A program made the translations under genes and the position numbers. Below the pieces are notes generated by a model. It was not told the DNA's origin. It saw only the letters and a list, made by a program, of their open reading frames with translations, and searched no databases. A stretch of 64,000 nucleotides of DNA from Candidatus Saccharimonadota bacterium. GTDB lineage: Bacteria > Patescibacteriota > Saccharimonadia > Saccharimonadales > UBA4665. This document shows positions 20,322 through 62,261 of the stretch, in pieces; positions within the stretch are counted from its first letter, which is position 1, and every line of letters starts with the position of its first letter. The stretch covers positions 1 to 64,000 of the forward strand of contig JAQGGZ010000010.1 in the NCBI GenBank assembly GCA_028289125.1. Direction: 5' to 3'.

Positions 20322-21851
20322 CTACCGGTTCCGGTAGGCTTTGATCAAACGGTTGAGGTCAAGGATGTTGACTATACCGTCACCGTTGATGTCGGCCCGT
20401 GACGTCAAAATCTGTTTGTCTTTGTGGTGATAGTCATTGATCAGGAGGCTGAAGTCCTTGGTGTTGATGATACCGTCGCGGTTGATGTCCTCGGCAGTAT
20501 AGCGGGCGTTCTTGACGGTGAAGGTTACGTCAGCGCTGGTAGAGGTGTTGTTCTTGCTCGAATTGTCGGTCGCGATGACCTTGACCGTGTGTTTGCCGTT
20601 AGCTAGGTTCTTGGTATTGAGGGTGATGCGGTAAGGCGTGTCGTTTTTGGTGAACTTCAGTTTTCCGTCAACGTACAACTGGATTTGCTTGATGCCGCTA
20701 TCGTCATTGGCGGCGACATTGACCGTCAGGTTGCCCGAAACGGTGCTGTCGTTCCGTGGTGCGGTAATGCGTACGGTCGGCGGAGTGGAATCACCGGTGG
20801 TAGCCGTCGCGCTGTTTTGCACGTTCAGGGTCGTAGCTGGGCTCATGGAGCTGTTGCCGACAGCGTCAAAAGCTTTGGCGGAGACCGTGTGGTTGCCGTT
20901 TGACAGCGCCTTCGTATTGACAGAGCTTGCGTAGTTCGGTGCTGTCGGCTGGGTATCTTTCAGCTTGCCGTCGACATAAAATTCAACCTTTTTGACACCG
21001 ATGTTATCAGTGGCTTTGACGGCGACTGCCACGGTTCCGGATACTCGGGAATTGTTAGCAGGAGCCGTGATGGTTACCGTCGGCGCGGTCGTATCGATAC
21101 TGGCGATGGTAAAGCCGATAGTGCTGCTGGTAGCTTTATTGCCAGCCGCATCGTAAGCCCGGGCTGTCAGCTGGTGCGGACCTTTGGCGAGCGTTGCCGG
21201 GTTCAGGCTCATGGCATACGGGCCGTTCGTGTCCGTTGCCTTCAGGGCATTGTCGACGTAAAATTCCACTTTGGTAACGCCAACGTTGTCGCTCGCATTA
21301 GCTGTCACGTTCGTCGTGCTGCGGATCGTAGAATTATTGGCCGGTGCCGTAATGTTGACCGTCGGTGCGACCGCATCGACGCTGTCGATGCAGTTATCGC
21401 CCGTACATGAGAAGTTCTGTGTGGCGATGACGCGATCAACGACAACGCCGTCTATGTTGCCGGCCAATGTAATGGTATGGGTGCCCGTCGTCAGGTTAGT
21501 CTGGGGTATGCTGGCCGGGTTGCCGTTCTGGTAGCCGACCCACGTCCAGGTATTGGCCGGCAATGAGGCGCCGCCCATCTTGATGTTGCAGAGGCTGTTG
21601 TCCACTTGCATGAGGACGGTGTTCTTTGAGCTGGTGGCGGTCTTCATACGGACAAGGAATCGATACGTTCCGGCACTGGAAACCGAAATGCTCGTCGTGA
21701 CAGTGCCACGGTCGGTCGGCAGTGCCGGGCAGGCGGCTGCGACAGTCGGTACGACTCCGCTGGCTATCGAAAATATGGTGATTGCCGGTACGACCAGTAA
21801 AGTCGTTACGATACGACGGTAGGACTTAGAAACGTCTGTTATTGTCATCAT
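20322..21851 (-). CDS. Secreted dockerin protein with CBM-like and Ig-like domains
   Basis: 509 residues. A signal peptide (about residues 1-37) is followed by a jelly-roll domain resembling CBM6/35 (about 40-165, with GTYRFLVRMKT and a closing DGVVVDRVI), then three bacterial Ig-like repeats (about 165-445), each opening PTV-ITAP-N-S and containing VEFYVD or IQLYVD. The C-terminal 59 residues (451-509) are a type I-like dockerin with two calcium loops: DINRDGIINTKD (455-466) and DINGDGIVNILD (487-498). Dockerins bind cohesins, and the gene upstream in the same operon encodes one; the genes overlap by 26 bases. This points to a surface complex that binds polysaccharide. The catalytic partner, if any, is not in this protein. 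Confidence 0.85.
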   Translation of the reverse strand: MMTITDVSKSYRRIVTTLLVVPAITIFSIASGVVPTVAAACPALPTDRGTVTTSISVSSAGTYRFLVRMKTATSSKNTVLMQVDNSLCNIKMGGASLPANTWTWVGYQNGNPASIPQTNLTTGTHTITLAGNIDGVVVDRVIATQNFSCTGDNCIDSVDAVAPTVNITAPANNSTIRSTTNVTANASDNVGVTKVEFYVDNALKATDTNGPYAMSLNPATLAKGPHQLTARAYDAAGNKATSSTIGFTIASIDTTAPTVTITAPANNSRVSGTVAVAVKATDNIGVKKVEFYVDGKLKDTQPTAPNYASSVNTKALSNGNHTVSAKAFDAVGNSSMSPATTLNVQNSATATTGDSTPPTVRITAPRNDSTVSGNLTVNVAANDDSGIKQIQLYVDGKLKFTKNDTPYRITLNTKNLANGKHTVKVIATDNSSKNNTSTSADVTFTVKNARYTAEDINRDGIINTKDFSLLINDYHHKDKQILTSRADINGDGIVNILDLNRLIKAYRNR

Positions 21852-23130
21852 GATACCTTATGTCGTTACCATTATTTTGCGGCGGCTGATTATAAATATC
21901 GTACACCTGGGGCGGTACGCCCGGCTGGCCCTGGTACACTGTCGGGTTTACGGCGGTGTTTGGTGACGCGACTGATTTGCGGAGGCGCAGCCCGAGCGTG
22001 ATGATGACACCGAGGGCAATCAGGATTATGACACCGATGAAGACAAGGCGCAGCCAACCAAGAGACGATGGCTTTACCTCGTATACGACGGAAAATGTCT
22101 GGGTATCAGACGTCTGGGTATTACCATCAGTGGCGACGTTGTCAACGATACTGAGGGTCTGGCTGTACTCTTTTCCACCAGTCTTGAAGACGATGGCTTG
22201 GTTGCCGGGTGATACATCGTTAAAAGTAGCCACGCCTGTCTTGTCTGTCTTGACTTTGAGGGTGGTCGGACCGCGAAGCTCGAGGGTTGTGCGCTTCAGT
22301 GGCTGACGGTTGACATCGTAGGCGGCTACACGAACGGTCAAACCCTTAAGTTTGAACTGGCGCGTTTCGGACTGGGCGGTATTGCCGAAAGCATCCTGGG
22401 TTACGACGGCGTAATTATAAGAGGAACCCGGGACAAGGGCATCGGATCCGAGCGTGATCGTATGGGTGCTGCCGGAATCGGTCAAGGGAGTGGTGTAAAC
22501 CAGTTCGTCCTTGCTGAAACCGTACATGATATAAGCCTGGGCGGCTTGCTTCAGACTGATGCTGATCATGGCCTGGTTATACTTGACGGTCTCTTTAGAA
22601 ATGGCGGCGGGTGTAAGGGAACGGATATTCGATTGACCATCGCTCGGTAATAGGCTCACGGTCGTTCCTGCCGTACCGTAACTCATGGATTCGCCGGCAC
22701 TCGTGGCGTTCGCATCACTGATGCTGATACCGGTAGTGCCATCCGCGACCAGAGCCTTGAAGGCGAGGACTTCAATCAGCGCATCGGTCGAGATAGCGCC
22801 GGTCGTACTCCCGCGTGAAACGTTGATCGTTCCATCGGCCTGCTTCTGTTCTAGCTGTGCATTGAAAGCGGTTCCGCCGAAGGTGGCTTTCAAGAACTGA
22901 AGTTTCGCCGGGTCATACGTGATCTTGGCCTCGACACTATCGATCGAGCCGCCCGGCGTGACCCGGAGTTGGATAATGACGGCATCGCCTTTTTTGGTAC
23001 TGGCCGCCGCCGGTGACAGGTATACTTGCCCGGCCTCAGCCAGCGCCGGGCTCGGTACGCCAAGGCACGCCAGCAATACCCCTGGAGTGATAAGGGCGAA
23101 ACTGAGCGCGAGCTTTAGTATCTTTTTCAT
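21826..23130 (-). CDS. Membrane-anchored cohesin-domain protein
   Basis: 434 residues from the ATG at 23130. A signal peptide (1-31, ending PSPALA) leads into a cohesin fold (about 34-163): QVYLSPAAASTKKGD, then SVEAKITYDPAKLQFL and an IEVLAFKALVADGTTGIS strand. Next are an FN3-like region (about 170-260) and a carboxypeptidase-regulatory-like domain (KTDKTGVATFNDVSPGNQ). One membrane segment follows (357-382), with a 50-residue Pro/Asn-rich tail inside. The protein would display a cohesin on the cell surface. The co-operonic dockerin protein is its obvious ligand. Longer start options exist upstream but extend the signal peptide unnaturally. Confidence 0.85.
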   Translation of the reverse strand: MKKILKLALSFALITPGVLLACLGVPSPALAEAGQVYLSPAAASTKKGDAVIIQLRVTPGGSIDSVEAKITYDPAKLQFLKATFGGTAFNAQLEQKQADGTINVSRGSTTGAISTDALIEVLAFKALVADGTTGISISDANATSAGESMSYGTAGTTVSLLPSDGQSNIRSLTPAAISKETVKYNQAMISISLKQAAQAYIMYGFSKDELVYTTPLTDSGSTHTITLGSDALVPGSSYNYAVVTQDAFGNTAQSETRQFKLKGLTVRVAAYDVNRQPLKRTTLELRGPTTLKVKTDKTGVATFNDVSPGNQAIVFKTGGKEYSQTLSIVDNVATDGNTQTSDTQTFSVVYEVKPSSLGWLRLVFIGVIILIALGVIITLGLRLRKSVASPNTAVNPTVYQGQPGVPPQVYDIYNQPPQNNGNDIRYHDDNNRRF

Positions 23131-23217
23131 GTTTATGTTGACTGTTAATGCTGACTGTATCAGATGATGCATATGCTTGCAAGCCGTTACGGCGTGGTAG
23201 CTGGCGTCCACATGCCA

Positions 23218-23231: not shown

Positions 23232-23828
23232 ATGACCCTGCGAAAAATAAATACCGTCCTGCTTGTCCTCATAATCCTTATAAATGCCTACGTCTTGCTG
23301 ACTCCGTTTACCCCGCGCCTGGTGTATTGGTGGCAGAATCGTGATGGTCACCGGCAGCAGGCTTTGACCGCGCAGTTGCACGCAACCGACGCCGTCACCA
23401 ATAGGGCTCAGGCTAACACCCACCCGGACGGTGTGGTGATACCAAGTATGTCACTCGACCAGTTCATACACGAAGGGCCGGTCAGTACGACCTACCGAAA
23501 TCTGGACCAGGGCGTCTGGCGCTGGCCGAACGGCAGTACACCGGACAAAGGCGGCAACACCGTCCTGTTAGGACACCGGTTCACATATACTCATCCTAAA
23601 GGCGTCCTATACTTCATGGACAAGGTGCGGCTCGGTGACGAGATCGGTGTCTGGTGGAGTGGGAAGCGGTATCTGTATAAGGTGTCGTCTATAACGACGG
23701 TACCCCCGACTGACACCTCTATCCTGGCGCCCACCACTGACAGCAGACTGACCATCTACACCTGTACGCCGCTTTGGAAACCGGTCAATCGCCTGGTAGT
23801 CGTCGCCAAGTTGGAAGGAGAATCATGA
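23232..23828 (+). CDS. Sortase (class D/E-like)
   Basis: 198 residues. An N-terminal membrane anchor (residues 7-24) is followed by a sortase beta-barrel. The catalytic set is present: His115 in VLLGHRFT, Cys178 in LTIYTCTP, and Arg187 in PVNRLVVV. Sortases cleave a C-terminal sorting signal and attach the protein to the wall or to another protein. The gene is divergent from the cohesin-dockerin operon, 101 bases away. No classic LPxTG tail is seen in the cohesin or dockerin products, so the substrate is unknown. It overlaps a 35-residue membrane peptide gene by four bases. Confidence 0.85.
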   Translation: MTLRKINTVLLVLIILINAYVLLTPFTPRLVYWWQNRDGHRQQALTAQLHATDAVTNRAQANTHPDGVVIPSMSLDQFIHEGPVSTTYRNLDQGVWRWPNGSTPDKGGNTVLLGHRFTYTHPKGVLYFMDKVRLGDEIGVWWSGKRYLYKVSSITTVPPTDTSILAPTTDSRLTIYTCTPLWKPVNRLVVVAKLEGES

Positions 23829-41379: not shown

Positions 41380-43266
41380 TTAATTTCTTACCAGGCCGAG
41401 TGCGTAATCAGCCCACCAGGCGCCTGCCGAAGGACCGCCGTTACAAGTGCCGTCAGATTCGCCAGGAATCTTGATCCACAGGAAAGCATCAACATTGGCT
41501 TGCCCGGTGCTGAGTGTCGGCGCTTGACCGATGGCCCGGCCTGACGGGTTACAGAACTGACCGTTAGTGCCGTTGCCGTTACGGCTAGTGTCGACGACGA
41601 ACGGTTTGTGGACCATGGCGTTCAGCTTGTTGCCGTAGGCGACTTCAGACGATGTGGAATTGAAGTTAGAGACGTTGAGTGCGAAACCGCTGGCTTTGGC
41701 GATGCCGGCTTGCTGTAAACGGCCTCCCATGTCGTCAACGCCTACCCAGGTGCTGTTACCGGCATCCAGGTATACAAGCGCACCCTGGGCACTCAATGTC
41801 GTGACAGCCTCGCTGAGCATCTGGTAGCGGCTTTGTTTGTCGAGCGCTGACAGACAATCATTGAGTGCAAGTGCGTCCGGCTCGAGTATTACGATGGCCT
41901 TATGACCACCTAGACCGCTGGCGAAAGCACTGACCCACTGGCTGTAGGCAGCGCTGTTGGCTGACCCGCCGGCGGAGTAACTGCCGCAGTCACGGTTTGG
42001 TATGTTATAAGCGACGAGGATAGGAACCTTGCTGCCGGCAGCGTTGACGTATGAACGGACGGCAGCGCTGACATCACCGCTCCAGTCACCGAACCACTTG
42101 GCGGTCGGCTGATTGGCGATCTTAGCCAAAAGGTTGGCGTCCTGCGGTCGGCTGTTTTTCCAGGCGGCGACCTGTTGGGCGGCTGCGGTATTCGGGTCAA
42201 CGTACAGTGAAGCGGACACCAGATTGTTGACGCTGTTGGCTACAGCGTTCGCTTCTGCGCCGGCGGCCGCAGCACTTGATTTGGCCGCGACAGAAGCGGC
42301 CGCGGTAGGCGCTGCGACGGCAGTCTCAGGAGTGCCGACACCAAAGGTTAAAGTGTCGAGGCGTAAATTGCGGTCACAAATGTCGTGGGCATCATTAGTA
42401 AAGGCGACCGAGACAGTGTGATCACCCGCCGTGATGGCCACTGGAATGCTGTAGTTACGCCAGGCGGCGCTATCGACGGCAATGGTGGTGAGAGCCTTGC
42501 CGTCAAGACTGACGACCATGGTGGCAGCGCCTTGGCAAAGGTCTGCCTTGGCCCGTATGATGATTTGATTGCTGGCTGGCGCTGCGTATTGATTGCTGAC
42601 GGTTGCATTCGTCCAAACCAGAAGAGCTGTGCCGCCGCGGGCGTCACTGTCTTCGTAGCCCGCTCCGGCCCAGTTCGGTAAATCGTTCGCGGAGAAATCA
42701 AAACTGTTCTGAGGCTGCGTAGACGGAGCTGGAGTGATAGCGTTAGCTTGCAGCGCGACATCATCCATATAGAAGGTCGGTTGAGTCTGTCCGGTCGTGT
42801 CCTGTAATACCAGGCCGTTCAGGGAATTGCTGGCCAGTCGCAGGGCACTGAGTGGCACGGTGTATATGCGCCAGCCGTCATTGCTGATATTGGCGGTCAC
42901 GTAGTCTTTGAGCTCGACGCTCTGGCTGGGCTGCCAGTTCTGGTCGAATCCGTATAAGCGCATGCTGGTAGGACTGCTGGTTTTCAACTTGAACTGGATG
43001 GAATTATACGGGCTCGTCGGAACTGCCCTGTCAGTGTGCAGGTACAGCCCGAACCAGCCGGTGCTCGGCGTGAAAGCGATCTGGTTGTCCTGCACGCCAA
43101 GCTGACCGCTCCACGACCAGTTGGTCCAGTCATTCTGAAACTGATCAGTAAAGACGGCGTAGTTGGTCGATGGCTCGGCTTCGGCGCGAGTCAAAATAGC
43201 CAGCGGGATGCCCAGGCTGGCTACAAGAGTAAGAGCTAAGATTGCGATTTTTGTTCGGAAGCGCAT
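41380..43266 (-). CDS. Secreted GH6 cellulase with two carbohydrate-binding modules
   Basis: 628 residues. A signal peptide (1-30) is followed by a jelly-roll module (about 38-175) and a second binding module resembling CBM60 (about 205-310, with RAKADLCQGAATMVVSLDG). An Ala-rich linker (315-345) leads to the GH6 domain (350-628). Family motifs are LVAYNIPNRDCGSYSAGG (Asp426), IVILEPDALALND (Asp464), FVVDTSRNGNGTN and WIKIPGESDGTC. GH6 enzymes cut beta-1,4-glucan with inversion. GAGGACCGAC precedes the ATG. It is in the same direction as the degenerate regulator and is the larger of two GH6 enzymes in the window. Confidence 0.9.
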   Translation of the reverse strand: MRFRTKIAILALTLVASLGIPLAILTRAEAEPSTNYAVFTDQFQNDWTNWSWSGQLGVQDNQIAFTPSTGWFGLYLHTDRAVPTSPYNSIQFKLKTSSPTSMRLYGFDQNWQPSQSVELKDYVTANISNDGWRIYTVPLSALRLASNSLNGLVLQDTTGQTQPTFYMDDVALQANAITPAPSTQPQNSFDFSANDLPNWAGAGYEDSDARGGTALLVWTNATVSNQYAAPASNQIIIRAKADLCQGAATMVVSLDGKALTTIAVDSAAWRNYSIPVAITAGDHTVSVAFTNDAHDICDRNLRLDTLTFGVGTPETAVAAPTAAASVAAKSSAAAAGAEANAVANSVNNLVSASLYVDPNTAAAQQVAAWKNSRPQDANLLAKIANQPTAKWFGDWSGDVSAAVRSYVNAAGSKVPILVAYNIPNRDCGSYSAGGSANSAAYSQWVSAFASGLGGHKAIVILEPDALALNDCLSALDKQSRYQMLSEAVTTLSAQGALVYLDAGNSTWVGVDDMGGRLQQAGIAKASGFALNVSNFNSTSSEVAYGNKLNAMVHKPFVVDTSRNGNGTNGQFCNPSGRAIGQAPTLSTGQANVDAFLWIKIPGESDGTCNGGPSAGAWWADYALGLVRN

Positions 43267-53294: not shown

Positions 53295-53409
53295 AGCCTA
53301 TGGCTACGCTAACGCCAAGTACAACAACCATGAGCGTCATGCGGATGCCAGCCATGAACACGCTCAAGCTTGACATATCTTCTTACTCGTAGTGATAATA
53401 ACAATAGTT

Positions 53410-54447
53410 ATGAGACGTCGTCGAGTAATCATCACCATCGGTATATTTTTGTTCATGGTGGCCGGAGTCGGCCTGACAGTTGCGGCCCTGACAAGGCGTG
53501 ATCTGACGCCGGCCCAGAACCCGTTACTTGGCAAGACCTTATATGTGGATTCGAACAGGGTGGCGAATAAGACAGCTCAGCAATATCGGGCTGATAATGA
53601 CATCACGAACGCCATGTATATGGAACGTATCTCGGACCGCCCTGGCACCACTTGGTTGATCGGGCCGTCCGCCTCTGATCCGAAAGCTGATCATGATATC
53701 GCAATGGTGGCCCGTACTTCGGCCGAAGCGTATAACCAAGGGGCCGTTCCGGTATACGAGATGTATGCCATTCCTGGTCGGGACGCGTGTGCCGGTTATT
53801 CCAAGAGTGGCTTTCAGACGAGCGACGATTATCTGGCCTGGGTCGATCGCATCTTGGCGGCTACCAAACAGCCTGCCGTCTTCAGCGTCGAAGCCGATGC
53901 TATCGCACAGACCATCCATGACAGCTGTCTGACGCAAAAACAAATCGCTGACCGGTATCAGTTGCTAGAGGCGACAATGAAAAAGCTGTCTATGTCGCCG
54001 ATGGTGCTGGCGGCCTATTTGGACGCCGGTCATTCGGAATGGTTTCCGGATCCGACCGCCCTGGTGGGGCCGCTTGAACGCTCCGGTGTGAGCTATGGCC
54101 GGGGCATAGCGGTCAACGTATCGTTCTTCGTGCCGACATCCGACGCCGTCTTATGGTCACAGAAACTGCTCAATATGATCGGTGGCAATAAAGCGGCGAT
54201 CATCGACACCAGTCGCAACGGCAAAGGCGCTCCCGACCCGTCGATTAAGGGCGACGAGCGTTGGTGCAATCCGGAAGGCCGTGGCCTGGGCGATGTGCCG
54301 ACGACTGATACGAAAGCGAATAACATCGATGCTTTTGTGTGGATAAAGAACGTTGGTGAAAGTGATGGCAGTTGCAACGGTTATCCGACCGCCGGGACAT
54401 TCGTTCCTGAACTGGCCATCGATTTAGCCCGCAACGCTAAGGAGTAA
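53410..54447 (+). CDS. Membrane-anchored GH6 endoglucanase (CslZ-like)
   Basis: 345 residues from the ATG at 53410. One N-terminal membrane helix (IITIGIFLFMVAGVGLTVA) anchors it, without a cleavage site, and there is no binding module. GH6 motifs: YEMYAIPGRDACAGY (Asp125), FSVEADAIAQT (E161, D163), AAIIDTSRNGKGAPD and WIKNVGESDGSCNG. The usual EPD triplet reads EAD. It hydrolyses beta-1,4-glucan near the membrane. It is convergent with the copper-radical oxidase gene (11 bases of overlap), as expected if it trims the glycan made by the neighbouring synthase, like CslZ in Streptomyces. Confidence 0.85.
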   Translation: MRRRRVIITIGIFLFMVAGVGLTVAALTRRDLTPAQNPLLGKTLYVDSNRVANKTAQQYRADNDITNAMYMERISDRPGTTWLIGPSASDPKADHDIAMVARTSAEAYNQGAVPVYEMYAIPGRDACAGYSKSGFQTSDDYLAWVDRILAATKQPAVFSVEADAIAQTIHDSCLTQKQIADRYQLLEATMKKLSMSPMVLAAYLDAGHSEWFPDPTALVGPLERSGVSYGRGIAVNVSFFVPTSDAVLWSQKLLNMIGGNKAAIIDTSRNGKGAPDPSIKGDERWCNPEGRGLGDVPTTDTKANNIDAFVWIKNVGESDGSCNGYPTAGTFVPELAIDLARNAKE

Positions 54448-56422
54448 CTTGTATCATTTTGGCGACGGACGGGGTGCCGTTCGTGTTGGTTACGAACAGC
54501 ATGTACCAGCCGTTGCTCATCACGTTCTCATCAGTCGGCAACTCAATAGTGACGGTATTACCGTCATGCTTGACGATGGCGCCAAGCGAGCGCTGCTCGA
54601 TATTCGTGACATGCGTCGTCGTACTGGGTGCGATCAATCGGGCGGTCTTTATGCTGCCGGCATCGGTCGACGTGAAGGTCAGGGTTTGGCCACGGTGCGC
54701 CTGCGTGTCATTGTTACCGTTCAAAGTCGGGCGGGCGCCACGGTATAACTGGGGCGGCGTGTAGATCTCCATACGCTGTTCAAATTTACCTGGCTGGGTG
54801 TTGTCCTTGTCGGAGTACAGCGGGTCGTTGCCGAAAACCAGGATACGGCTATCAGGCAGCAGCAGTGAGCCGGAGTGATAGCTTCGGCCTACCAGTGAAT
54901 CGGCCATCATTTCCATTTGGTTGGTGGTGGGGTTCAACATGGCGGCTTTATAGTTATAGCTGTTTTCCTTGCCGCGGTAATCACTTGAACCACCGGAGAT
55001 GAAAAGTTCGTCCCAAGGGGTGACCGAAACGTTCGGGTAACGGACGGCTGCCGGTAAACCGGGTCCGGCTTTGTACGACGGGTTGTCGCTGGCCAGATCG
55101 ATGACATCGGTACGGGCCGTCACGAGAGGGGATTCACCGACGCCACCACCTCCCAAGATCATGATTCGAGAGCTTTGGCTAGCATCGTTCGATCCGGCAG
55201 TCGGCGGCAGGACGACGGACGCACTCGTCTCGGCGATATTGGTATCACGCAGGCCGGTGACGGTCCTGAATGAGTTGGTCTTGACGTTCCAGAACCCCGG
55301 TACGCGGCCTTTATCGGCCGGCCCGTAGCCAGCGCTAGAACCTGAGAAGAACAGTACGTCAGGATCTTGCGTCCGGAACAGTGCCGGATAGGTCGGGAAA
55401 GCCTGATCCGGGCCCCAAGACCAGGCCTTGGTGGCCGGGTCATACCGTTCAGTCGTATCAGTAATCTGGCCGGTGTTGTCGAGACCTGATACCGCGAGAA
55501 CGTCCCCGTTGGTCATGACCGGCAGGGTCGGGTACCAGCGGCTTTCTTTCATGTCACCGACACGCACGTAAGCCTCTTTGACCGGATCGAATTCATACGC
55601 CCGGTTGTCGCCACGGTAATCCTGCTTGTTTAGGGTCATCGGTCCGCCCTGGCCGTAGATGTTATGTACGTCGTCACCCTTCAGACCGACGATGTCGTAA
55701 TGCTCATTGCTGCTCGTGATGTACGAAGTATCTTCGGCGACGGCTTCGACGAACACGGTGACCGAGCTATGGGTGATCATGATACTCCCGTCGTCATGCT
55801 CCATCTTTGTAGCGGGCTGGACGACGATATCCTGGGTTGAAACATAGACCTTTCCGTCCGGTCCGGTGAATCGGGTGCCTTTATTGAACGAGCGCGCCTT
55901 TCCGTCCGGATTCTCGTTATGGATGATCATAGCGCCGGCCGGTTTCTTGACGTCACCTTCAAGTAATTCATAGCCGCTCGTGCCACCGGCCACTAAGACT
56001 TTACCTGATTGCAGCAGGGCATGGCCGCTACAGAACAGATCGCTCGGAGTCGGTATGATCTTCACCTCCATCGTCGTCGGGTCAAGCACGGCAGTCTTGA
56101 GGACGCTGATCATGTCATTATTATTAAACTCGTTGAAGCTGTCCCGGTTATTACCCGAGCCGGCCACGAGCAGTACTTTGCCAGTCGGTAGCAGGGCTGC
56201 ATGAATGGTGTTGAGGCGGAACGCCTCCGGAAGGTTGATAATGTCCCATTTGCCACGGCTGCTTAAGTAATCCGGTGCATTGATGATTTGGTTATGGTGC
56301 CATTCGGCGACAGCCGGCACCGACAAAGGCGACGAGGCTGCCAGTAGCGCGATGACCGTGCTGACGAATAAGGTAAACGGTTGCCCCCGGCGTGCCGTTC
56401 TGACCGGATTGTCTTTACGCAT
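54437..56422 (-). CDS. Copper-radical oxidase, GlxA/galactose oxidase family (AA5)
   Basis: 661 residues. A signal sequence or signal anchor lies at 16-40. Kelch-type repeats and a C-terminal DUF1929 Ig-like domain (about 555-660) follow the galactose/glyoxal oxidase plan. All predicted radical-copper residues are there: Cys131 in FCSGHALL, Tyr297 in SRWYPTLP, Tyr515-His516 in GRSYHSGSL and His604 in TTTHVTNIEQR. An extra stretch of about 110 residues lies between Cys131 and Tyr297 compared with Streptomyces GlxA (from memory). The enzyme would oxidise a primary alcohol of the glycan to an aldehyde using oxygen, making peroxide. It overlaps the glycan synthase gene by eight bases; GGAGG precedes the ATG. 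Confidence 0.85.
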   Translation of the reverse strand: MRKDNPVRTARRGQPFTLFVSTVIALLAASSPLSVPAVAEWHHNQIINAPDYLSSRGKWDIINLPEAFRLNTIHAALLPTGKVLLVAGSGNNRDSFNEFNNNDMISVLKTAVLDPTTMEVKIIPTPSDLFCSGHALLQSGKVLVAGGTSGYELLEGDVKKPAGAMIIHNENPDGKARSFNKGTRFTGPDGKVYVSTQDIVVQPATKMEHDDGSIMITHSSVTVFVEAVAEDTSYITSSNEHYDIVGLKGDDVHNIYGQGGPMTLNKQDYRGDNRAYEFDPVKEAYVRVGDMKESRWYPTLPVMTNGDVLAVSGLDNTGQITDTTERYDPATKAWSWGPDQAFPTYPALFRTQDPDVLFFSGSSAGYGPADKGRVPGFWNVKTNSFRTVTGLRDTNIAETSASVVLPPTAGSNDASQSSRIMILGGGGVGESPLVTARTDVIDLASDNPSYKAGPGLPAAVRYPNVSVTPWDELFISGGSSDYRGKENSYNYKAAMLNPTTNQMEMMADSLVGRSYHSGSLLLPDSRILVFGNDPLYSDKDNTQPGKFEQRMEIYTPPQLYRGARPTLNGNNDTQAHRGQTLTFTSTDAGSIKTARLIAPSTTTHVTNIEQRSLGAIVKHDGNTVTIELPTDENVMSNGWYMLFVTNTNGTPSVAKMIQVTP

Positions 56423-58238
56423 GCTGGACCTCCTCCGTCCTTAATGATTTACGGAAATTCAATGTGCGCAGCCGGTCAGGAATTGCAACAGCCAGACCGA
56501 GTGCCATGGGTGCGATACAGACAAGGCAGAGTACACCTACCCAGACCAACATGGCGGGGTGTTCCCGGCCGCGTTGCAAGCCATAGGTGAGGCCAAGGGC
56601 TAAAACGGCGGCCCAATGCCCGTGACTTTTGAAAGTCGGCAACCAGTCGGGATTATCGTTTGACCCCTTAGTCGTAACTACGAAATGAGGCTTTCGCCCG
56701 ACGGTAATACCGATCAGGGCTGAGAGATAAATCGGTGCGGTCAGGCTGGAAATGACCATGCCGGCAACGCCATATGAGCCACTCGGCTCATGCGGCGAGA
56801 CATTGTATCGGCGGTTCCAGAAGTATAGGCTCAGTTGCATCACGAGTGTCATCAGGTAGAGGGCAATGAACGCCCCCCACGGCGCCAACACGGCCGTGGC
56901 ACCCCATATCAGATAAATCATGCTGCTGGTCACGGCCAGGAGCCACGTCAGGGCGGTCATCGGATAATACGTTAACATTAAGAAGTAATGGAGCATGGCC
57001 TTGGGAGATAGTTTCCAGAATATGCGCCAGACGACACGCCGCCAGGTATCGAACGTGCCGGCAGCCCAGCGCCATTGCTGGGTAAAGTAGGGTGCCCAGA
57101 AGTTCGGCCCTTCGCCGATAGCGAGCACGTCCGGCGTGTAGACGGATCGCCAGCGCTGGCCGGTGTCAGGGTTGGCGGAACTGTGTATGGCCAGACCGGT
57201 AGCCATGTCTTCGGTAATACACGGCTGGAATCCACCGATTTGTTTGAGCGTGGCAAATCGGACGGCGTAGTTGGTGCCGACGAACATGGCCGAGCGAGAA
57301 GCGTTACCGGCACGCTGAATCGTACTTTGAAAGAATGAGGCTTGCGACTCGGCCCAACGGGCAACCAGACCTTTCAGGCCCGGGCCATAATTGCCGTATA
57401 CCTGTGGTCCGACGACGTATGCGACGTCCGGATCGCGGAAATAACCAAGAAGACGGTTGAGGTAGTTCGGCAATGGTACTTGATCGGTGTCGACGCCGGC
57501 CAGGATATCGTATTCGATGCCCGTCAGGCGCAGGTAGTCCATCCAGGAGTTTATATTGCCGTGTTTAGAGCGGGCGGCGTAGAAACGATCGGTCGTCGGC
57601 TTGGGCCGACGCAGCAGCCGGTCCTGCCAGCGATACGTCGTTTCGGCAGTGTTCCAGCAGGCTATCCCGGCGCGGCTGAAATGATGCACTCCCAGCTTAT
57701 CGCAGATAGCCTCAATCTCTGGGTCGTCGGTTTCATCCAGCAACCAGACGTCGACGGTGCCGCTACGATATCGGATGCGCTTGGCGGCTGCCAGTGTCGT
57801 CTCGACCATACTGGCTGGTTCGCCCGGCGCCCTGGTCGTGATAAAGGCAACCCGCAGATTTCGCGGAGGTGCGACCGGCACCGGGTCCTTTGCTTTGATC
57901 GTGGAACGGGTAGCGGAAAATGTGCCGATAATAGTGAACAGCTGCAAGAGCATCAGGCAGATTAGCATTATCAAGTTTGCAAAATGCGTCGAAGAATCGG
58001 GGTTCTGGACGATGATCCAGTGAGAAGGCCAGAACAGCACGAGGCAAAAGCAAAGCGTTATAATAAAGGCGCCGTAGGACAAGATGTAGAGCCACGCCCG
58101 GTAAAAGTAGTTATCGTCACGGCTCACCGGGACGAAACGCACACGATATGACTCATACCTAGGAACCTTGTCAAATTTTCCAGCAAGTTGGCTAAAATGC
58201 CTGAGTTGGCGGGTGAGCTTGGGTCCAGCTATCTTCAT
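56415..58238 (-). CDS. Processive beta-glycan synthase (CslA-like, GT2)
   Basis: 607 residues. About seven membrane segments surround a GT2 domain with the processive synthase set: DETDD (168-172), VDTDQ (D250/D252), TED (342-344) and QQWRW (387-391). This is the cellulose synthase-like group, which polymerises a nucleotide sugar and moves the chain through the membrane. There is no C-terminal PilZ domain, so c-di-GMP control as in BcsA is not expected. The overlapping downstream gene is the copper-radical oxidase. The product is probably a beta-glucan but the sugar cannot be read from sequence. The upstream region is 140 bases of AT-rich DNA with no Shine-Dalgarno. Confidence 0.9.
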   Translation of the reverse strand: MKIAGPKLTRQLRHFSQLAGKFDKVPRYESYRVRFVPVSRDDNYFYRAWLYILSYGAFIITLCFCLVLFWPSHWIIVQNPDSSTHFANLIMLICLMLLQLFTIIGTFSATRSTIKAKDPVPVAPPRNLRVAFITTRAPGEPASMVETTLAAAKRIRYRSGTVDVWLLDETDDPEIEAICDKLGVHHFSRAGIACWNTAETTYRWQDRLLRRPKPTTDRFYAARSKHGNINSWMDYLRLTGIEYDILAGVDTDQVPLPNYLNRLLGYFRDPDVAYVVGPQVYGNYGPGLKGLVARWAESQASFFQSTIQRAGNASRSAMFVGTNYAVRFATLKQIGGFQPCITEDMATGLAIHSSANPDTGQRWRSVYTPDVLAIGEGPNFWAPYFTQQWRWAAGTFDTWRRVVWRIFWKLSPKAMLHYFLMLTYYPMTALTWLLAVTSSMIYLIWGATAVLAPWGAFIALYLMTLVMQLSLYFWNRRYNVSPHEPSGSYGVAGMVISSLTAPIYLSALIGITVGRKPHFVVTTKGSNDNPDWLPTFKSHGHWAAVLALGLTYGLQRGREHPAMLVWVGVLCLVCIAPMALGLAVAIPDRLRTLNFRKSLRTEEVQHA

Positions 58239-60236: not shown

Positions 60237-62261
60237 ATGCGAAAAGAATTCATGAAGTTTAATACGCGTTATCTGACACAGACCATCTTTGTCTTGGTGT
60301 TTGGCATGGTAGGCGTCAGTGCTTTGATAATCTCGCATGCCGCCTCATCTACAGTGGCGACTGAAGCCGAAAACGGTACGCTTTCTAATTGTGTCACCAA
60401 AGTAAAAGACGCTTCGGCTTCGGGTGGAACGGCCGTTCAGTTCGGCACCTGTGCGCCGAGCGCCGGCGGCAACCCACCAGCCGGCGGGGGCACCACCAGC
60501 CCGGTAGGCAGTAGCTCCGGCCCTGGGGCCCACCTGCCGATTTCGTACAGCTTGTCGTCTTTGACAGGAACGGTGCGTTATGTGGCCACCAATGGCTCGG
60601 ACACAAACCCGGGGAGCGCGAAAGCTCCGTTCGCCACGCTCTCGAAGGCGATCAGTGCGTCAGCTGCTAACGACTCCATAGTCGTCCGGGGCGGTACGTA
60701 TCGTATCGGCAACCTTGCAGTTAGTAAGAGTCTGAAAATTTACGCTTACCCAGGTGAAATACCTGTTTTTAACGGGGCTCAGAGCTTCGCCAGCGGCTGG
60801 ACGACAAGCGGCAGCCTATCCTCACACTCATACGCACCGAAAGCTGCCACCGACGGAAGTGGCATCTCGTTCACTGGCGGACAGAATCTAAGTGGTGATG
60901 GCGTCGGTAAATACCCCGATCAGGCGTGGGTTGGCGGGAGTCAGTTGAAGCAGGTCAGCTCACAAGCAGCTGTTACGGCTGGTAAGTTCTATGTCGACCG
61001 GACCGCCAAGCGGATATATCTGGCGGCCAGTGACGTCAGCAAAGGTGGGGTAGAGGCTTCGGACAAAAACGTATTCATGAGCATCTCGGCGGCTAACACC
61101 GTCCTCCGCGGCCTGACGATTACCCGTTACTCGAACGGTGGCGCCGACTACGGCATCATCAATATCACGGGTAATGCTGACTCGTCGCTGCTGCAGGACG
61201 ACGTCATATCGGATGCCGCTTTCATCAGCGTTGCCTACCAAGGCAATAGCAACACGAACGCCAATGGCACGATGCGTAATGTGACCGTCACATCATCCAA
61301 CTGGATGGGCGTGAGTGCGACCTATACCGACAACCTTACCCTGGATGGCGTCAAACTGGTGAATATGAATCAGTTCAACGAGTTCACTTACTCACCGCAG
61401 TCCGGTGGACTTAAGACGAGCCGTACGACATTCACCAAGGTTATCAATAGCGATATCAGCAATAATAAAAGCCACGGCCTGTGGTTCGATCAGAGCAACT
61501 ACCATGTCGAAGTCGCCAACAACACGATTCTCGATAATGCTGGCAGCGGGATGTTCTTTGAAATTTCAGACAACTTGTGGCTGGTTAACAATTACATCCG
61601 TTCCACTGGCGGTGCCAGGGCGGTCAAGCTGGCAGGCTCTTCCGGCATGAATCTAATTAACAATACGATCATCGGCGGAGCCGATCCGATCGGCGTGTAT
61701 GTCGATAACCGCTCATTGCCAGGTTGTTCTGACCCGGCGCGTGCTCTCTGCGCGGGATCATATAACAGTGACCGTGATTCTGTCCGGGCACACCGCGCGA
61801 CGATGACGTGGGTGCCGAGTATCGATATAATGATCAACAATATTGTGGCGTACCCGACAGCCGCCGGTTATTGCGGTACCACGACCGGCTTGTGCATCAC
61901 GTCCAGTAACGCGACCGCTAAAGTCGGGCTTAACACGGTCATCCACAAGGCGGCCGGTGGCCGTCCGCTCACACAGATGAACGGTAACGTGTATGCCAAC
62001 GGCAGCGGCAAGATTATCAATACCGCTTCGGGCAATTTCACGACGACAGCCGCATTCATGAACGCAATGGCCGGAGCCCCGGTAGGCATCGGTGGCATCG
62101 AATCTGCCGGTTTGTCTGGCAATACGTATGTCGCGGCTGACGGCAAGCCGACGGCAGCGCTCACAGCTGTTCATAGCAAGGCGGTTGCCATTCCGGGCAA
62201 TGCGACTATCAACCAGTATGTGGCGGCCGGTACCCGCCATTACGGCGTCACTTACAAGTAA
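60237..62261 (+). CDS. Secreted right-handed beta-helix protein with CBM6-like N-terminus
   Basis: 674 residues; an ATG five codons later (60252) is an equally good start since neither has a clear ribosome site. A signal peptide or anchor covers about 1-40. The next part (TEAENGTLSNC, then ASGGTAVQFGTC) is a short CBM6-like element. A Gly/Pro/Ser linker follows, then a beta-helix starting RYVATNGSDTNPGSAKAPFATLSKA, a DUF1565-type opening, with Asn-ladder turns (NNTILDNAGSGMFF, LVNNYIR, NLINNTIIGG). Such folds belong to polysaccharide lyases and hydrolases. No catalytic residues can be named. It probably acts on, or binds, an external polysaccharide. Confidence 0.8.
   Translation: MRKEFMKFNTRYLTQTIFVLVFGMVGVSALIISHAASSTVATEAENGTLSNCVTKVKDASASGGTAVQFGTCAPSAGGNPPAGGGTTSPVGSSSGPGAHLPISYSLSSLTGTVRYVATNGSDTNPGSAKAPFATLSKAISASAANDSIVVRGGTYRIGNLAVSKSLKIYAYPGEIPVFNGAQSFASGWTTSGSLSSHSYAPKAATDGSGISFTGGQNLSGDGVGKYPDQAWVGGSQLKQVSSQAAVTAGKFYVDRTAKRIYLAASDVSKGGVEASDKNVFMSISAANTVLRGLTITRYSNGGADYGIINITGNADSSLLQDDVISDAAFISVAYQGNSNTNANGTMRNVTVTSSNWMGVSATYTDNLTLDGVKLVNMNQFNEFTYSPQSGGLKTSRTTFTKVINSDISNNKSHGLWFDQSNYHVEVANNTILDNAGSGMFFEISDNLWLVNNYIRSTGGARAVKLAGSSGMNLINNTIIGGADPIGVYVDNRSLPGCSDPARALCAGSYNSDRDSVRAHRATMTWVPSIDIMINNIVAYPTAAGYCGTTTGLCITSSNATAKVGLNTVIHKAAGGRPLTQMNGNVYANGSGKIINTASGNFTTTAAFMNAMAGAPVGIGGIESAGLSGNTYVAADGKPTAALTAVHSKAVAIPGNATINQYVAAGTRHYGVTYK

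Follow-up and report, generated by a model that had tools for sequence, protein, structure and literature searches.

A membrane-anchored cohesin and the dockerin protein encoded next to it as a probable two-protein surface attachment unit of a Saccharibacterium

What does a single cohesin do beside a single dockerin in a genome in which no dockerin-bearing enzyme is found? This question is raised by two overlapping genes of a Candidatus Saccharimonadota bacterium (assembly GCA_028289125.1, contig JAQGGZ010000010.1), which lie in a stretch of 64,000 nucleotides that was analysed as a whole and is called the window here. The answer that we consider likely is that the two proteins form a surface attachment unit, in which the dockerin is docked on the cohesin in the membrane of the same cell and the rest of its protein reaches outward as an arm that binds glycans. 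Docking in cis had already been proposed in the initial annotation, and this reading is supported by the evidence given below. That the two are cognate partners is supported most strongly by a comparison across genomes, which follows the description of the two proteins. The genes and their parts are as follows:

21826..23130, reverse strand: cohesin anchor gene, 434 amino acids from the ATG at 23130
23038..23130, reverse strand: signal peptide, residues 1-31 (own reading, from a hydrophobic N-terminus with ALA as its last residues)
22642..23034, reverse strand: cohesin domain, residues 33-163 (PF00963 match and structural alignment to 2vo8)
22339..22629, reverse strand: fibronectin-III-like (Fn3-like) domain, residues 168-264 (VIA-align Z 10.9 to 7y8s and 10.8 to 6xax)
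22081..22335, reverse strand: prealbumin/CarboxypepD_reg-like sandwich, residues 266-350 (Pfam matches weak and sub-cut-off; strands confident in the model)
21970..22062, reverse strand: membrane-spanning helix, residues 357-387 (hydropathy and model helix), with a tail behind it that is disordered and charged
21826..21851, reverse strand: overlap of the cohesin and dockerin genes, 26 bases
20322..21851, reverse strand: dockerin arm gene, 509 amino acids
21735..21851, reverse strand: signal peptide, residues 1-39 (own reading)
21402..21734, reverse strand: CBM35-like domain, about residues 40-150 (sub-cut-off match to Pfam CBM_35 and profile matches in the PDB)
20505..21374, reverse strand: three Big_7 immunoglobulin-like (Ig-like) repeats, about residues 160-449 (PF17957, three stretches, 188.8 bits, E 2.3e-56)
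20340..20492, reverse strand: C-terminal dockerin with two calcium loops, residues 454-504 (PF00404)

Both open reading frames (ORFs) were found at these positions, including the 26-base overlap that the initial annotation had reported. The ORF listing offers a GTG at 23211 as an alternative upstream start of the cohesin gene. By our own reading, an AAGGT precedes the start codon of the dockerin gene at roughly the spacing of a ribosome-binding site.

The first protein had been proposed to combine a signal peptide, a cohesin fold and a membrane anchor, and Pfam, an AlphaFold2 model and the C-terminal helix agree on this. The window protein matches PF00963 with 30.0 bits at a curated cut-off of 24.1 (34.1 bits in the genome search). 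The model, for which the window sequence and 29 relatives served as input, has a mean predicted local distance difference test score (pLDDT) of 84. It places the cohesin sandwich at residues 31-164, with blocks over residues 31-160 at a pLDDT of at least 87, and the C-terminal helix at residues 357-387. A search of the PDB by sequence alone retrieved no relative of the window cohesin protein. The top match of a Foldseek search against the PDB was 2w1n (E 5.1e-12), a double module from Clostridium perfringens in which a cohesin stands beside an Fn3 module, as in the window protein. An alignment of the cohesin model with VIA-align gave a Z of 18.1 and a root-mean-square deviation (rmsd) of 1.7 Å over 128 residues for 2vo8, the cohesin of a GH33 enzyme of C. 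perfringens, and rows 1-41 are all cohesin-containing entries, with Z falling from 18.1 to 11.4. The closest folds are thus the C. perfringens cohesins 2vo8, 2w1n and 2jh2, the latter two with a Z of 17.1 each. The structure prediction that the initial annotation had suggested as a check, and that could have put the first protein outside the cohesin fold, put it inside. According to the titles of 2vo8 and 2w1n, the C. perfringens cohesin is part of a secreted glycoside hydrolase, whereas the window cohesin has no enzyme attached and is anchored by a membrane helix.

For the second protein, the three Ig-like repeats and the dockerin with two complete calcium loops were confirmed. The dockerin matches PF00404 (Dockerin_1, type I) with 36.7 bits at a curated cut-off of 22.9 in the window (42.4 bits in the genome search), and the calcium-loop residues are present in both 12-residue loops (DINRDGIINTKD and DINGDGIVNILD). 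A Pfam scan shows no enzyme domain in the protein, as had been stated. The dockerin protein has no anchor of its own, and the sortase signal LPXT[GAS] was searched for in both window proteins and was not found.

From these parts, the following mechanism can be proposed. After export, the cohesin protein would stay fixed in the cytoplasmic membrane through its C-terminal helix, while the Fn3-like and prealbumin-like domains would act as a stalk that presents the cohesin socket outward. The dockerin protein would be exported without an anchor, and its C-terminal dockerin, folded with calcium and presumably dependent on it, would plug into the socket. The three Ig repeats would then be a stalk and the CBM35-like domain a sugar-binding tip, and the unit would tie the cell to a glycan, which might belong to a host cell, to debris or to the cell's own coat.

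The source genome, which comprises 874,203 bases in 11 contigs and is 88.94% complete, contains one dockerin and one cohesin, as judged by Pfam and by class-specific profiles at E values up to 10. A genome-wide search for further dockerins had been recommended, and it returned only the dockerin of the window. As no other dockerin or cohesin was detected, neither protein has another detectable partner in the genome.

The class was surveyed by searching the same 294 genomes (Saccharibacteria) for both Cohesin and Dockerin_1 with Pfam. A cohesin is present in 38 and a dockerin in 70 of them, and 32 have both (odds ratio 31, Fisher p 1.5e-17). In 30 of these 32 genomes, a cohesin is found at most 5 kb from a dockerin; in G065 and G171, which also have both families, the matches listed sit on separate contigs. 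Where a genome has a single cohesin and a single dockerin, as 18 do, the two are always neighbours, with no more than 2.7 kb between them. By our own arithmetic, two genes that are placed randomly in about 1 Mb have a chance of about 1% to be separated by 5 kb or less, and the adjacency of cohesin and dockerin is far above chance.

Together with four genomes in which Pfam had missed the cohesin, the 18 one-to-one genomes give a set of 22 pairs. The dockerin gene comes first in 14 of them, the cohesin gene in four, and four pairs are convergent; in 18 of the 22, the genes overlap or lie at most 4 bases apart. The layout varies while the adjacency persists, and therefore a functional tie is indicated, not merely the inheritance of one layout. 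A transmembrane helix follows the cohesin in 20 of the 22 paired anchors, with G165 being scored via its second, short cohesin ORF (its other cohesin ORF has the helix). With the same hydrophobicity measure, a signal peptide was detected in 20 of the 22 anchors. The dockerin ends at most 8 residues from the C-terminus in all 22 pairs, and both calcium loops are recognized by the same loose pattern in 20 of the paired dockerins.

The two partners also diverge in a correlated fashion. In a Mantel test with 21 pairs, cohesin and dockerin distances correlated with an r of 0.61, compared to 0.08 and 0.02, respectively, for their correlations with LeuRS distances. LeuRS and RpoC distances correlate at only 0.13. 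Because LeuRS is a poor species marker, the test was repeated with RpoC, and for 18 pairs an r of 0.563 was obtained; with RpoC controlled for, the partial correlation was 0.568, with the lowest p that 20,000 permutations can give. RpoC itself correlated somewhat with the dockerin (0.22) and hardly with the cohesin (0.05). Twelve pairs without the window's own cluster yielded a partial correlation of 0.507 (p 0.0017); in this set, RpoC was followed by the dockerin (0.62) but not by the cohesin (0.09). Both tests were run without G039, whose dockerin ORF is truncated at the end of a contig, and without G165, which has two cohesins; from the RpoC test, G200 (without a match to RpoC), G064 (RpoC split) and G278 (RpoC fragment) were left out as well. 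To judge from these distances, the two genes are passed on together and diverge jointly.

Saccharibacteria belong to the Patescibacteria, and the pairing extends beyond the class. In a sample of 286 genomes of the phylum, a cohesin was present in 78 and a dockerin in 105. Among the matches listed, 34 genomes outside the class have both families, and in 19 of these they are at most 5 kb apart; pairing in the rest of the phylum is thus common but less strict. Some genomes of this sample, again outside the class, are rich in dockerins, namely G358 (contig C27), G383 (contigs C33 and C36) and G460, with 8, 10 and 19 dockerin matches. In G358, a row of dockerin ORFs stands beside an ORF of 945 amino acids with two cohesins and a dockerin, which is cellulosome-like in outline.

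What is carried by the dockerin differs among relatives. Big_7 was found in 17 of 35 paired dockerin proteins, fn3 in 14, an RGI_lyase-type sheet in 10, a polysaccharide deacetylase in five, and a subtilase in one. Across the class, the predicted socket is constant and the predicted head variable. In 12 proteins from 10 genomes, a cohesin is combined in the same chain with a dockerin at the C-terminus. In G089 and G267, three adjoining genes encode a dockerin protein, a protein with a cohesin and a dockerin, and a protein with a cohesin and a membrane helix. According to our own reading, these triplets would represent tip, adaptor and anchor, which would suffice for a chain. Scaffoldin-like ORFs of 1000-1194 amino acids, which have a dockerin at the C-terminal end in addition to three cohesins, are present at L088, L090 and L092 (in G096, G199 and G276), and the genus of these three genomes comprises Saccharibacteria with up to 8 cohesins per genome. 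Large dockerin proteins at L103, L112, L114, L117, L102, L104 and L106 contain, by our own reading, subtilase motifs (GHGTHIAGTI, GTSMATPHA) or papain-like motifs. These proteins come from a single family of the order, and the motifs suggest that they may be docked surface proteases.

Half of the 38 dockerin-only genomes, i.e., 19, were examined for sockets next to the dockerin. A profile of 66 class cohesins uncovered a cohesin missed by Pfam beside the dockerin in four of them. In 13 of the 19, the gene directly downstream of the dockerin gene encodes an exported protein whose N-terminal region is rich in beta structure, and hydropathy predicts a C-terminal membrane helix in 11 of these 13 proteins, one of the exceptions being cut by a contig end. 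G009 and G049 have neither a cohesin nor an exported beta-rich neighbour. Several dockerin proteins of the genomes examined show in the alignment, by our own reading, the subtilase or papain-like motifs mentioned above. Among the groups of these 13 candidate sockets, F1 has an anchor domain that aligned to cohesin with an hhalign probability of 52.7, compared to 0.3 and 0.4 for two control domains. In comparisons with the AlphaFold2 model of the F1 domain (pLDDT 69), cohesins (Z 10.1, 10.0 and 9.6) scored on a par with unrelated sandwiches of the Ig-like type (Z 10.5 and lower). The hhalign value versus cohesin was 5.0 for F2, which has a Big_2-like look, and 0.7 for F3 and F4. A dockerin gene lies directly upstream in all eight F1 loci that were fetched, of which four are from the query-source genomes and four are independent. 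Two of the independent loci, L123 and L128, belong to metagenome-assembled genomes that are labelled Bacilli/Bacillales and have a dockerin and F1 pair of the gut-Saccharibacteria type, which hints at transfer or mis-binning.

Several points weigh against the proposed docking of the two proteins on one cell. Co-transfer of linked genes could by itself yield a distance correlation; therefore, the correlation supports a unit, not a contact between the proteins. Of the 38 genomes with a cohesin, 6 have no dockerin match, and more than half of those with a dockerin (38 of 70) have no cohesin by Pfam. As the source genome is 88.94% complete, a second partner may be missing from it. In the first dockerin segment of the window protein, by our own reading, a K stands where most relatives have a hydrophobic residue. 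For the N-terminal domain of the arm, the match to CBM_35 (PF16990) has an E value of 0.02 and 15.6 bits, below the cut-off of 28, and a PDB search with this domain as a single sequence gave no credible match. The assignment as CBM-like, which had been made in the initial annotation, is thus not carried by Pfam. It is carried by a 24-sequence profile of the domain (from 39 places listed), the best PDB matches of which are 2vzp (E 0.0027) and 2wz8 (E 0.011). We take both to be CBM35 modules; the PDB listing names the parent proteins only. Because of these matches and the sub-cut-off Pfam score, the domain can fairly be called CBM35-like, and we infer from this that it may bind a polysaccharide. 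Homologs of the domain occur in 31 of the 294 class genomes, and, in favour of the proposed unit, it is encoded in frame upstream of a dockerin at 15 of the 39 places, in 14 genomes.

Could the pair instead work in trans, with a released dockerin protein docking on cohesins of other cells or other species, or with the surface cohesin capturing dockerin proteins of neighbours? The missing anchor of the dockerin protein would fit, as would the genomes mentioned above that have a cohesin without a detectable dockerin or a dockerin without a Pfam cohesin. However, the adjacency in all 18 one-to-one genomes and the correlated distances favour a partner encoded in the same genome, and the cohesins that Pfam missed in 4 of 19 dockerin-only genomes adjoin the dockerin. 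We therefore regard action in trans as unlikely.

Similarly improbable, in our view, is a cellulosome-like degradative complex, in which the arm would bring the cell or secreted enzymes to a polysaccharide for its digestion. Such a complex would be in line with the two GH6 proteins encoded in the window, one of them with a CBM60, with the deacetylases and the subtilase among the docked arms of relatives, and with the three genomes that have three-cohesin ORFs ending in a dockerin. But neither GH6 protein has a dockerin, and with one detectable cohesin and no dockerin-bearing enzyme found in the genome, no multi-enzyme complex could be built. A cellulosome in the window genome was rejected on the same counts, i.e., one cohesin and one dockerin, the latter not on an enzyme, in a genome of the completeness given above. 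The earlier view that the pair serves attachment rather than digestion fits the window species, as the dockerin protein carries no enzyme, but it does not fit the whole group: because the arms of relatives include a polysaccharide deacetylase in 5 of 35 cases and a subtilase in 1 of 35, the attachment role is proposed for the window species only.

That cohesin and dockerin are no partners at all, but unrelated surface proteins that share an operon through the same expression conditions, is very unlikely: operon genes are often co-transferred, so that distances correlate without contact, and domain matches alone do not demonstrate binding, yet four of the 22 pairs are convergent, so that a common operon is impossible for them, and they nevertheless remain adjacent, and the genes flanking the pair in the window are not kept near it elsewhere (of 31 other pair loci, 3 have a homolog of the sortase and none has a homolog of any of seven further window neighbours).

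The proposed plug-and-socket unit can be compared with known systems. The clostridial cellulosome likewise has cohesin and two-loop dockerin modules, with a CBM on the outer part; in contrast, neither a multi-cohesin scaffoldin nor a dockerin-bearing enzyme was found in the window genome. A noncellulosomal cohesin of Archaeoglobus fulgidus (2xdh) resembles the window cohesin in standing outside a cellulosome, and its fold matches with a Z of 16.2 and an rmsd of 2.6 over 131 residues. Peer et al., in 2009, are said to have described the cohesin and dockerin modules of A. fulgidus in neighbouring genes. To our knowledge, that work dealt with one archaeal species, and we know of no class-wide one-to-one pairing in it. 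Noncellulosomal cohesin-dockerin systems are a known kind; what is new is the class-wide, one-to-one, membrane-anchored version in ultra-small bacteria, which is not a cellulosome.

For Ca. Stygibacter (Cloacimonadota), cellulosome-like proteins have been described: one large scaffoldin bears cohesins in tandem, and several enzymes, among them a peptidase S8, carry dockerins (PMC8542988). It is likewise an uncultured lineage, and its dockerin-bearing peptidase S8 has a counterpart in the subtilase arms of some relatives here; however, a tandem-cohesin scaffoldin there stands against one cohesin and one dockerin here. Closer to the window species is the Saccharibacterium Southlakia epibionticum, in which the dockerin-domain surface protein SEML1_0315 was essential for epibiotic growth in a transposon sequencing (Tn-seq) experiment, and was speculated by the authors to target host glycans (PMC10633639). 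By its description, on which the comparison is based, this is also a dockerin-domain surface protein, but no cohesin partner is named and the word "cohesin" is absent from the text of that article as available. A giant ORF of Omnitrophota is reported to have nine dockerins (PMC10066038). There, too, noncellulosomal dockerins of small host-dependent bacteria have been proposed to be adhesins; they differ in that nine dockerins are united in one giant protein, and in that no paired anchor is described in the accessible portion of the article. In the open-access literature that was retrievable, i.e., without subscription papers and preprints, no description of cohesin-dockerin pairs in Saccharibacteria or Patescibacteria was found.

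A broader proposal is tentative, and perhaps a little more open to doubt than to belief. In Saccharibacteria, and probably in other Patescibacteria, the one-to-one pairs might be a general means to fix exchangeable "tool heads" (CBM/Ig arms, deacetylases, proteases, beta-helices) non-covalently to a membrane socket, and cohesin-dockerin adaptors might extend the chains in some genomes. The essential dockerin protein of Southlakia would then be one such head and an unnamed gene its socket, and a fast-diverging or a different sandwich domain would be the socket where Pfam sees no cohesin. A conserved, adjacent, membrane-anchored cohesin offers a directly testable candidate partner for such an essential protein of an epibiont, which touches the question how tiny epibiotic Saccharibacteria hold onto host cells. 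The pairs suggest a stripped-down plug-and-socket way of keeping proteins on the cell surface. Such a system would show that cohesin-dockerin contacts can serve surface display well outside cellulose digestion, and it would supply a natural set of small cohesin-dockerin pairs that are useful for protein assembly.

The divergent neighbour of the cohesin gene in the window is the following:

23232..23828, forward strand: sortase gene

The sortase was considered as a further member of the unit and rejected, in view of the low conservation of its position that was given above and the missing sortase signal in both proteins.

Further away, a GlxA-like oxidase (PF21110, E 1e-26), a family 2 glycosyltransferase and a GH6 protein are encoded together at 53392-58238 of the window. 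This set presumably resembles the CslA/GlxA/GH6 system that acts on glucan at the hyphal tips of Streptomyces, and the docked CBM35-like arm could bind a self-made glucan of this gene set. The GH6 protein with a CBM60 and without a dockerin is encoded at 41383-43266 on the reverse strand. Lastly, a right-handed beta-helix protein, which by our own reading has an N-terminal CBM6/35-like stretch, is encoded at 60237-62258 on the forward strand.

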